Counted from the first letter of the stretch, positions 20,880-23,910 are shown. The stretch is DNA of 37,023 nucleotides from Methanoregulaceae archaeon (GCA_021371995.1 JAJFVA010000012.1:1-37023), one strand, 5' to 3'. Numbers and translations are program-made. Notes: generated from the letters alone by a model not told the origin.

Positions 20880-20908
20880 AAAAAAGAACCAGGATTGGGG
20901 CCCTGGTT
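20880..20908 (-). terminator. Hairpin-plus-T terminator of secreted paralog A
   Basis: On the - strand, AACCAGG, an 8-base loop and CCTGGTT are followed at once by CTTTTTT. It starts 9 bases after the stop codon. Paralog B has a related terminator with the same ACCAGG/CCTGGT stem. Confidence 0.65.
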
Positions 20909-20916
20909 ATTCGATG

Positions 20917-21738
20917 TTACCTGACCATGCCGGATTCGTAGTGCATGAGCTTCTCGAAGCTGGTGATATCACCGGTGACGGTGGTCTCCTCAGAGAACTC
21001 AATACGCTCCATCAACATTTCGCTATAATAGATAGGATCATCAAAGAATTCGGCAGCTCCTTCCTGGATCAGTACCTCCATGTATGCAGAGGCGGTTCCC
21101 ATGGACGGGAGATCATCGACAAGCTCAGTGACAAGGAGGTCGTGGTTCAGCTCGACAGTGTTGTCGGAAGAGGGCATCACGAACCTGTCGGTCGAGGTGG
21201 TCCTGACGTTTGCCACAGTCATGTCGATAGTACTTCCTGCCTCTGCCCTGTTGCAGTAAGCAGGGAAATAATACGTGACCGCCTGAGCGAACGGACAGAT
21301 CACATGGTCTTCGGTGTAGTCGTAATCTGATGCCCCGTCTACAAAGATAGTGTCCGTTGATACGACACGGGCACCGTCAACACCGACGAATGCCAGCTCC
21401 TTTACGGCTTCAATATTCCACTGCCCGGTAATCTGACCGGAAGTCTCGATATCGAGTTCTTTGTCGTAAAGGATAAGGCCGATGCCATGGTTCTGGGTGT
21501 CCTCAGTGTACGTTGATTCGTAGATTCCCCAATCCATGGGAGGAATCCCATTAAGCCCGTCATCATCATCTGTGATTCTCCACTGTATCTCCGTTGCAGA
21601 GGCAAAGTTGCCTATCGCGTCGAGAGTGGTGGATGTGACTATCCCTTGCGTCTCAGGAACAGGGTCCATGCCACGATCAGCCATAGCATACCCGGTGATG
21701 AGTGCCAATGTGACCACAAGAATTACGAGTTTTTTCAT
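20917..21738 (-). CDS. Secreted protein of an unrecognised family, paralog A
   Basis: Exported protein of 273 residues that I cannot assign. A signal peptide (MKKLVILVVTLALITGYAMA) is followed by PETQGIVTSTT, a region rich in Asp/Glu and Thr, and two Cys in the blocks ICPFAQAV and YCNRAEAGS, which could form a disulfide. Several repeated-looking beta phrases (QWNIEAVKELAFVGVDGAR, RTTSTDRF, SAYMEVLIQEG) suggest an all-beta surface protein. No anchor is seen; the end is KLMHYESGMVR. GGGAG precedes ATG 21738 by about 7 bases. It is about as long as paralog B and identical over the last 30 residues, with a shared leader hairpin and upstream region. Acidic composition suggests an extracellular or S-layer-associated role; that is a guess. 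Confidence 0.78.
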   Translation of the reverse strand: MKKLVILVVTLALITGYAMADRGMDPVPETQGIVTSTTLDAIGNFASATEIQWRITDDDDGLNGIPPMDWGIYESTYTEDTQNHGIGLILYDKELDIETSGQITGQWNIEAVKELAFVGVDGARVVSTDTIFVDGASDYDYTEDHVICPFAQAVTYYFPAYCNRAEAGSTIDMTVANVRTTSTDRFVMPSSDNTVELNHDLLVTELVDDLPSMGTASAYMEVLIQEGAAEFFDDPIYYSEMLMERIEFSEETTVTGDITSFEKLMHYESGMVR

Positions 21739-21758
21739 TGTATACTCCCATTGTGCTA

Positions 21759-21777
21759 ATGCCGATACTATCAGCAT
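21759..21777 (-). promoter_or_regulatory. Leader hairpin of paralog A
   Basis: On the - strand, ATGCTGA-TAGTA-TCGGCAT can pair over 7 bases, with one G-U pair, just upstream of the ribosome binding site. The same element occurs before paralog B (23050-23069), where the stem pairs perfectly. It may be an RNA hairpin controlling translation or an operator. Confidence 0.5.
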
Positions 21778-21879
21778 CGATTCAATATTCCCCAATGAAC
21801 ATAAAAATGTAATGAGTATTATCTGATCGATAATGCTTGTAGTATTGAAGGGTATAGTGACAATAGCCATCGAACTTTT

Positions 21880-22140
21880 TTATCAAACGGGATGAATAAT
21901 CCAGGTACATGGGGCGGTGTTCCTTGCTGTTTTGAAAATTTCAGATAATGACTTCGTCCGTCAATTCCAATGTGAACTGGGAATGAACCGCCACCGGGGC
22001 GCCCTTTGGGACAGCGGGGTCTATAGCATAGGTGTTACGAGACAGACAAACAACACGTTTTCCAAGTCCAAATAGTAGTGACCGGATTTGACTGCATTTC
22101 TCGACATGGTTTATAAGCAGGACTGGTGGTGACACTCCCT
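21880..22140 (-). repeat. Duplicated upstream region, copy A
   Basis: This intergenic stretch upstream of paralog A aligns by eye with 23130-23390 upstream of paralog B. Shared blocks include ATCAAACGGGATGAATAATC, ATGACTTCGT, CAGGTGTTACGA-like and AGCAGGACTGGT. Copy A keeps a 64-codon open frame on the - strand (21941-22135), but copy B is frame-shifted there, so I treat both as non-coding. Confidence 0.65.
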
Positions 22141-22164
22141 GCCTTCATCAAAAAAACACTGAAT

Positions 22165-22194
22165 AAAAAAAAGGACCAGGATTGGTATCCTGGT
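22165..22194 (-). terminator. Hairpin-plus-T8 terminator of secreted paralog B
   Basis: On the - strand, ACCAGGAT-ACCA-ATCCTGGT is a perfect 8-base-pair stem with a 4-base loop. CC and eight T follow, starting 9 bases after the stop codon. It looks like a bacterial-style intrinsic terminator. Confidence 0.75.
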
Positions 22195-22203
22195 TAGTCG
22201 GAT

Positions 22204-23028
22204 TTACCTGACCATGCCGGATTCGTAGTGCATGAGCTTCTCGAAGCTGGTGATATCACCGGTGACGGTGGTCTCCTCAGAGAACTCAATGCGCTCCTTC
22301 AGTATCCTCCCTTCCCCGCGTTCGCCTCCACCTTCCTGGATCAGAACCTCCATGTAAGCAGAAGCGGTTCCCATGGACGGCAGATCATCGATAAGCTCGG
22401 TCACAACCAGATCATGGTTGAGCTCGACCGGATGATCTCCGGATCCCATGATGAACCGGTCTGTGGACGTTGTCCTGATGTTGGCGACGGTCATATCAAC
22501 GGTACTGCCTGCCTCAGCGCGGTTGCAGTAAGTGGGTATTGGTCCATCAACCGCTGATGCAAACGGGCAGATCAACTCCTCACCCTCATTTAAGATACAG
22601 TCTCTTGCTCCGTCAACAAAGATCACGTCGGACGAAACGACACGGGCACCATCAACACCGACAAAGGCAAGCTCCTTGGTCGCCTCGATGTTCCATTGGC
22701 CGGAGATCTGGTTGCTGGTCTCGACATCCAGTTCCTTGTCGTAAAGGATCAGGCCGATGCCATGGTTCAGGGTGTCCTCGGTGTATACCGATTCATAGAT
22801 ACCCGAACCAGAGCCATCGCCTTCAAGGGGCGGTACTGAAGGAAGTCCGTCAGCCACCGTTGTAATCCTCCACTGGATCTCAGACATTGATGCCAGGTTG
22901 CCCACGGCATCTACAGTTGTGGATGTAACGATGCCCTGGGTCTCCGGAACCTGGGGTATACCCATGTCAGCGAATGAGTAACCGGAAAGGAGTACAATAG
23001 CGATCACGAGTAGCAAAAATTTTTTCAC
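22204..23028 (-). CDS. Secreted protein of an unrecognised family, paralog B
   Basis: Close paralog of the gene at 20917-21738, 274 residues, function unknown. A signal peptide (VKKFLLLVIAIVLLSGYSFA) leads into PETQGIVTSTT. A Gly/Ser-rich insertion (GDGSGSG) sits near residue 75, and the two-Cys core ICPFASAV...YCNRAEAGS is kept, plus one extra Cys in GARDCIL. The last 30 residues are identical to paralog A. The frame is open to a TTG at 23043. I chose GTG 23028 because AGAGGA lies 5 bases upstream and the signal peptide begins there. A leader hairpin precedes it and a strong hairpin-T8 terminator follows, so it is probably a single-gene transcript. Confidence 0.78.
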   Translation of the reverse strand: MKKFLLLVIAIVLLSGYSFADMGIPQVPETQGIVTSTTVDAVGNLASMSEIQWRITTVADGLPSVPPLEGDGSGSGIYESVYTEDTLNHGIGLILYDKELDVETSNQISGQWNIEATKELAFVGVDGARVVSSDVIFVDGARDCILNEGEELICPFASAVDGPIPTYCNRAEAGSTVDMTVANIRTTSTDRFIMGSGDHPVELNHDLVVTELIDDLPSMGTASAYMEVLIQEGGGERGEGRILKERIEFSEETTVTGDITSFEKLMHYESGMVR

Positions 23029-23049
23029 GTTATTCCTCTTCAACTTTCA

Positions 23050-23069
23050 ATGCCGATACTATTCGGCAT
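23050..23069 (-). promoter_or_regulatory. Leader hairpin of paralog B
   Basis: On the - strand, ATGCCGA-ATAGTA-TCGGCAT forms a perfect 7-base-pair stem with a 6-base loop, 22 bases upstream of the GTG start. It matches the paralog A element, where one stem pair is G-U, which fits selection for RNA structure. A TATA-like TATATATT lies further upstream (about 23092-23099). Confidence 0.55.
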
Positions 23070-23129
23070 CATACTATCTTGCAAAACAAGGATAATATAT
23101 ACTTGGGTATAGTGACAATCAAGCCACCG

Positions 23130-23390
23130 CCTTTTTATCAAACGGGATGAATAATCCCGGTACTTTGAGGCGGTTTTTCTTGCTGCTTTATAAATTTCGG
23201 ATGATGACTTCGTTCATGAAGTCAAATGTGAAGAAGTATTGAATTGTTGCCGGGACGCCCTTCGGGGACAGCAGGGTCTTGTACAGGTGTTACGAAACCG
23301 ACAAACAGCACGTTTTCCACCCAAATGGTACTTTACTAAATTTTTCATGATGATTTGTCAGCAGGACTGGTTGTACCAATGACGCTATAG
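23130..23390 (-). repeat. Duplicated upstream region, copy B
   Basis: Counterpart of 21880-22140, at a similar distance upstream of paralog B. Indels disrupt any shared reading frame while blocks such as GCGCCC/GCGTCC and CGTAACACC remain. The duplication unit was therefore gene plus several hundred upstream bases. Confidence 0.65.
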
Positions 23391-23454
23391 CTTTTTTGAA
23401 TATTTTATTTCGAAAACAGGAATAGTGGAACCATCTCCACACTGTTGGACAAGA

Positions 23455-23910
23455 TTACGTTATATCCTTCAAATTCCGACTCGTTCTGAACGTGCCGAAA
23501 TTCGTGCCTGCACTACTGATGTCAGGAGTTTGATCTTCTCTGTCTTCCCGCATCAGAACTTCCATATAGGCCGATCCGGTGTCGACCTCGGTAACACGGG
23601 GATCGGGGGTGAATTCTACAGGCGGGACCCCGGGAGGCACTACCAGCCGATCGGTCAAAGTTGTGCGTTCCCTGTCAATGAGCACCAGGGTAATCCCATT
23701 GGAATATGTGTCCTCACTATAGACCAGGTTGTTTTGTGAGGGAGGGAGCATATCACTTGGGTGCCATTGCATTTCGGGTCGTAGAAGGATACTGGAGGAA
23801 GTGGCAAAGTTCCCTTTCGCATCGATGATGGTTGTTGATACAATACCCTGGGCCATTGCAGAACCGGTCAGAAGGAAAAGGGCAAGGATGAGCAATATTA
23901 TTTTGTTCAT
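23455..23910 (-). CDS. Secreted protein, shortened member of the same family (paralog C)
   Basis: Exported protein of 151 residues. A signal peptide (MNKIILLILALFLLTGSAMA) is followed by QGIVSTTIIDAKGNFATSSS, then YSEDTYSNGITLVLIDRE, then RTTLTDRLVV and TGSAYMEVLMRED. These correspond in order to QGIVTSTT, YTEDTxNHGIGLILYDKE, RTTSTDRF and TASAYMEVLIQEG of paralogs A and B. The roughly 84 residues between DKE and RTTSTDR, including both Cys, are absent, and the tail after MRED is different. ATG 23910 has a strong AGGAGGAG site. It is either a compact functional member or a deletion derivative; an intact frame and good ribosome binding site favour the former. No leader hairpin is seen. Confidence 0.72.
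   Translation of the reverse strand: MNKIILLILALFLLTGSAMAQGIVSTTIIDAKGNFATSSSILLRPEMQWHPSDMLPPSQNNLVYSEDTYSNGITLVLIDRERTTLTDRLVVPPGVPPVEFTPDPRVTEVDTGSAYMEVLMREDREDQTPDISSAGTNFGTFRTSRNLKDIT

Follow-up and report, generated by a model that had tools for sequence, protein, structure and literature searches.

Genes A and B of the analysed DNA are members of the SH family (formerly MspA), whose amyloid-like proteins build the archaeal cell sheath, one of the largest known protein polymers. They lie in a window of 37,023 nucleotides, the whole stretch of DNA that was analysed, from a Methanoregulaceae archaeon (GCA_021371995.1 JAJFVA010000012.1:1-37023). The host is a metagenome-assembled relative, and the assignment rests on homology to an experimentally identified sheath protein. 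The family is already known and the protein result is ordinary once named, A and B being new SH family members; it does name a family left blank by current protein-family libraries. It is very probable that A and B are co-assembling sheath subunits, each expressed from its own TATA promoter with a hairpin at the 5' end of the mRNA, and that the third gene of the cluster, C, is degenerate.

Organisation of the gene cluster

The three genes and their flanking signals are as follows (positions count from the first letter of the window).

20917-21738, minus strand: gene A, SH protein, 273 aa, signal peptide at about residues 1-20, two cysteines (CPFA, YCNRAEAGS)
22204-23028, minus strand: gene B, SH protein, 274 aa, GTG start, third cysteine
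23455-23910, minus strand: gene C, SH relative shortened internally and C-terminally, 151 aa, no cysteines, no leader hairpin
21801-21807, minus strand: TATA-like box of A (TTTTTAT), centre 27 nt before the hairpin
23093-23101, minus strand: TATA-like box of B (TATATATTA), centre 28 nt before the hairpin
20880-20908, minus strand: terminator-like hairpin and T-run after A (AACCAGG...CCTGGTTCTTTTTT)
22165-22195, minus strand: terminator-like hairpin and T-run after B (AACCAGGA...TCCTGGTCCTTTTTTTT)

The original prediction had described three secreted proteins encoded on one strand, each with a signal peptide and a set of shared blocks, and this description was confirmed by the reading frames and the sequence. 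The QGIV-STT, YxEDT, RTTxTDR and SAYMEVL blocks are present in A, B and C, and all three N-termini, judged by eye, resemble signal peptides, with positive residues, a hydrophobic stretch and an AxA-type end. The two cysteines said to be common to A and B are indeed shared, with the addition of the third in B, and the acidic character ascribed to both holds for mature A (pI 4.05). A leader and a terminator for each gene, also predicted, were found for A and B in the form of a TATA-like box, a leader and a hairpin with T-run, but not for C, where the leader hairpin is absent and no clear terminator was seen. A and B are 74-76% identical, and direct repeats with a spacing of about 1.27 kb span both genes and reach into the DNA upstream of each; A and B therefore arose by tandem duplication.

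No link to the sheath was seen among the neighbours in the window (a metallo-beta-lactamase/ACT protein, a ParA-type NTPase, M20 and M42 peptidases, an N4/N6 methylase and an RNase H-like protein). Both A and B are preceded by an intergenic repeat of some 240 bp (21850-22077 and 23105-23345, minus strand), a dispersed element that occurs at 11 places in the genome (twice on contig C5 and on C15, C34, C19, C8, C23, C32, C3, C38 and C37) with 74-79% identity. It contains hairpins, its folding shows no net covariation and it has no Rfam match; it is possibly a decayed non-autonomous mobile element. As a part of the sheath system it was rejected, since eight further unrelated sites carry it.

Homology to the sheath protein of Methanospirillum hungatei

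A family profile built from 62 rows matched a 377-aa protein (G165:C1:2536906-2537502, E=1.1e-53) in a Methanospirillum-like genome, G165, a single contig of 3.5 Mb. This protein, of 40.5 kDa and with C257, C271, D43 and K363 present, agrees with every testable published value (length, mass and these four residues) of the M. hungatei sheath protein WP_011449234.1, Mhun_2271 (PMC6242892, PMC10593813). From these matching sequence facts we infer that G165 is M. hungatei. Aligned end to end, A and the G165 protein share 29% identity, and both cysteines are matched. C257 and C271, proposed to link sheath rings by disulfides, are the positions to which the two shared cysteines of A and B align; these are conserved in more than 90% of the family. 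A signal peptide and an all-beta fold are further features in common, whereas A and B, in which the helical cap insertion is absent, are for that reason some 100 residues shorter; they also carry T at the K363 position and so do not retain the D43-K363 salt bridge known from M. hungatei.

Sequence searches of Pfam, NCBIfam and PDB gave no match to the family, nor did PHROGs (E>0.03), and a close-relative scan of IMG/VR returned no viral relatives of A. Because no Pfam, NCBIfam or PDB entry covers SH, the family could not be recognised in the original prediction, where it was called unrecognised; the profile search has now provided a clear match to a characterised family.

For mature A, AlphaFold with the family alignment produced a confident all-beta model (pLDDT 93.3, pTM 0.89) containing roughly 12 long strands and a single short helix. 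In the published SH core, beta-arches connect two antiparallel beta sheets of six strands each; the model of A would be in keeping with an SH core whose cap is small where that of M. hungatei is helical. A Foldseek search with this model against PDB and BFVD yielded only low-TM matches to pore-forming sheets, which are not meaningful; no relative was found because these libraries contain no SH structure. For C the predicted model was poor (pLDDT 54, pTM 0.32).

Copy number and distribution

The host genome (1.85 Mb, 43 contigs, 98.6% complete) gave 18 family matches. Fifteen are full-length copies with 63-79% identity (E from about 1e-132 to 1e-98) on contigs C5, C6, C7, C8, C10 and C15; the other three are partial, gene C among them. 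Relatives of the same genus have up to 36 matches per genome, and family members occur in the named relatives Methanolinea sp. UBA277 and Methanomicrobiales MAG MM4. A survey of Methanomicrobiales, as had been proposed, covered 199 genomes of the order and found SH profile matches confined to one family, f1, plus one weak match. Across the phylum the profile also matches family f10, probably ANME-1, with full-length matches down to 7e-40, and it has no match in genus g5, probably Methanoregula. This genus distribution agrees with the published one, in which Methanospirillum and Methanolinea have multi-copy clusters and Methanoregula has none (Medvedeva et al. 2024, PMC11576556); SH copies in Methanolinea had been reported earlier (PMC11576556, PMC6242892). 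The host shares lineage and multi-copy habit with the Methanolinea described there, where the SH cap is a five-strand sheet, but its copies are spread over at least six contigs in place of a single cluster. It also differs from M. hungatei, which has one dominant gene as against 15 full-length copies.

A hairpin leader specific to SH genes

Upstream of both A and B a 7-bp hairpin is located just before the ribosome-binding site and about 28 nt below the TATA box.

21744-21781, minus strand: leader of A, ATGCTGA-TAGTA-TCGGCAT, followed by a weak Shine-Dalgarno sequence GGGAG; R1 E=5.2e-5; -9.2 kcal/mol
23035-23073, minus strand: leader of B, ATGCCGA-ATAGTA-TCGGCAT, followed by GAAGAGG; R1 E=4.8e-5; -11.1 kcal/mol

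The consensus, [A/G]TGC[T/C]GA, a five-base loop (GAGTA) and TC[A/G]GCAT, followed by 6-10 bases, (GTA)GGAGG and the start codon, hardly differs between genera, with a nearly fixed spacing between stem and Shine-Dalgarno sequence. An identical leader with its ribosome-binding site precedes the proven M. hungatei-type SH gene, which like B starts with GTG. Single leaders are predicted to fold with -8.5 to -16.7 kcal/mol, and a search of the window against Rfam at gathering score gave no match to the element.

R1, a covariance model made from the leaders, was run over the entire host genome. At E<=0.003 it returned 14 matches, all of them immediately in front of full-length SH genes (14 of the 15); weaker matches were the opposite strand of the same sites. 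In G165, with 11 SH profile matches, the only leader match stands before the proven SH gene, whose transcription far exceeds that of any other SH gene in M. hungatei (PMC11576556); the same study found no conserved context of SH genes. Genomes of the G177 type carry seven leaders for some 22 SH genes. Across eight genomes all 60 leader matches (E<=0.01) precede SH genes, one of them truncated by the end of its contig, with an SH-type signal peptide in the part that remains. In the scan of 199 genomes of the order, 32 of the 37 SH-positive genomes of f1 have the leader and the SH-negative genomes of f1 do not; sheath-less relatives lack it, as do nine ANME-1-like genomes of f10. The leader may have arisen after transfer of the SH gene to Methanomicrobiales, the f10 homologs (e.g. 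L118, L119) being without it.

Five genomes outside f1 gave R1 matches (E 4e-6 to 9e-4) that were taken as chance, four of the five having no plausible downstream gene start. One match, G040:C21:147149-147183 (L179, E=3.8e-6), the only one that might resemble a leader, is situated before a ribosome-binding site and start codon that open a 107-aa coiled-coil frame.

An AT-rich box at -34 to -26 before the stem, with a purine-rich stretch ahead of it, and a TG just before the stem were seen in the set of 73 leaders. Given the distance of 19-22 nt from box to start site mapped in another methanogen (PMC5378194), the position of the box would put the transcription start only a few bases from the stem, so that the mRNA would open with the hairpin.

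Probable role of A and B in the sheath

What the analysis shows is homology to a proven sheath protein, the cysteine alignment, the all-beta model and the conservation and specificity of the leader; assembly, co-assembly, the transcription start and the action of the hairpin are inferred. A and B would be secreted through their signal peptides, fold as cross-beta arch proteins and polymerise side by side with the other SH copies into closed beta-rings, which would stack into a tube around the cell, held from ring to ring by disulfides of the two conserved cysteines. Most likely the 15 full-length paralogs co-assemble in one sheath, because their edge strands are near-identical and only the loops differ. 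Each sheath-building copy would have its own TATA promoter and transcript, beginning with the 7-bp hairpin followed by the ribosome-binding site, and the hairpin would protect these abundant mRNAs or tune their translation.

The chance that A and B are minor or specialised copies, acting at ring edges, in plugs or as a reserve and not as main subunits, is somewhat short of even. Both have comparatively weak leaders (about 31 bits, against 53 for the best copies), B has a GTG start and the extra cysteine, the Shine-Dalgarno sequence of A is poor, and most SH copies of M. hungatei are hardly transcribed (PMC11576556). However, a compensatory C-G pair keeps the pairing of the B leader perfect, both reading frames are intact with a complete core, and B has been kept in another species as the ortholog of the UBA277 copy L051:6939-7760, with which it has the GTG start, the extra cysteine and the loops in common. 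At positions fixed differently between genomes, B nevertheless carries the residues of its own genome, for example D40 and D257, which are N and A in UBA277 and MM4; D40 is the equivalent of D43, which lies in the subunit interface described in the literature. The pattern would be explained either by exchange between the paralogs or by their adapting in parallel to co-assembly.

RNA element or DNA operator

Pairing in the stem was assessed on an alignment of 54 leaders gathered by a pattern that fixed the TGC and GCA arms; those pairs are consequently no evidence, and the covariation support comes from three of the seven pairs (columns 5-24, 9-20 and 11-18). Of the cells in this alignment 97.9% are paired. 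On four of five measures none of 500 shuffles reaches the observed covariation, and a strand shift of one to three columns abolishes pairing. An alternative 9-bp pairing (columns 1-9 with 14-22) was rejected, with 74.5% of cells paired and covariation not above shuffles.

These observations favour an RNA hairpin. A near-perfect palindrome adjoining the inferred transcription start, with a consensus almost unchanged between genera, could alternatively be a DNA operator bound by a dimeric regulator of a sheath regulon, a reading that we regard as unlikely but worth keeping in view. The stem tolerates compensatory departures from the consensus when they are symmetric (C-G for U-A, G-C, U-A), as in columns 9-20 with 40 UA, 8 UG, 6 CG and no CA, and the distance to the Shine-Dalgarno sequence hardly varies. 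The operator is less likely above all because G-U outnumbers A-C by 19 to 3 cells over the whole stem, an asymmetry that a DNA palindrome would not show.

The RNA hairpin would likely act in mRNA stability against 5' attack or in the setting of translation, the latter because the leader abuts the ribosome-binding site; a regulator protein that binds it is possible. The sheath papers examined, the study of Methanolinea SH (PMC11576556) among them, make no mention of a promoter, leader or stem-loop; the element thus seems undescribed so far. The fuller proposal, that the sheath genes of Methanospirillum and Methanolinea have a cis-acting RNA element of their own, not described before, which marks the sheath-building copies among the many SH paralogs and controls mRNA lifetime or translation, possibly with feedback by the sheath protein or a dedicated binder, we consider evenly poised.

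Bacterial mRNAs of the ompA type have stabilising stem-loops at their 5' ends. The likeness is that a surface-protein gene of very high abundance has a short hairpin at, or close to, the 5' end of its mRNA; the putative archaeal counterpart differs in that it would face archaeal decay enzymes and in that its sequence is conserved and associated with a single gene family. An SH-specific leader offers a way to predict sheath-building copies from sequence only, and a handle on the regulator.

Gene C

Gene C is probably a remnant, a shrunken and degenerate SH copy. It matches the family in parts only (E=9e-7), its sequence skips from the YDKE region to RTTxTDR, and it ends ahead of the conserved C-terminus; both the central part and the ERIEF...KLMHYESG block at the C-terminal end are missing. 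Since the signal peptide is intact, the 151-aa frame open and the Shine-Dalgarno sequence good, and other short SH relatives are known elsewhere, C could be a functional cap-less protein like the short viral and archaeal SH variants. We find this distinctly unlikely in view of the loss of the cysteines, of several core strands and of the C-terminus, the low-confidence model, the missing leader, and the failure to find a relative of like shape in 30 genomes.

Variation among SH copies

Differences between the paralogs are concentrated in the signal peptide and in loops at about 51-70, 131-160 and 224-241, and the strands near both chain ends are almost invariant. The predicted origin of secreted surface proteins by local duplication is supported. 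Separate regulation stands insofar as A and B appear to be separate transcripts, and misleads in that both have the same kind of leader element. As to selection for variation or dosage, antigenic-type variation is a poorer fit than dosage with interchangeable subunits: the predicted subunit-edge strands hardly vary, the loops do, and 14 of the 15 full-length copies share the leader. A truly unrecognised variable surface-protein family, unrelated to known systems and kept for antigenic-type or phage-escape variation, would suit the blank library searches and the three loop regions that hold most paralog differences, but it is highly improbable given that the homology to the proven sheath protein of M. 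hungatei extends over the full length, with matched cysteines, and that the distribution matches, its family part being already refuted at sequence level by the profile match and the features of the G165 protein.

Several unusual SH relatives were noted. Half-size relatives (L016, G000:C6:34176-34529; L112; L107; and short profile matches from the phylum-wide search), in Methanospirillum-like and Methanolinea-like genomes, combine an N-terminus of their own with the C-terminal half (profile positions of about 150-273) and could be ring-end or linker subunits. In UBA277 the SH frame is broken near the N-terminus in three copies (L048:2836-3555, L054:4272-5015, L058:6959-7780), with leader matches at most 130 nt from some of them; pseudogenes, assembly errors and on/off copy switching are the alternatives. 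Finally, a subclass in three species (L006, L013, L051:8983-9849, L050:7886-8764, L057:6001-6876) has a variable tail in place of GMVR after KLMHYES, possibly the mark of a specialised subunit.
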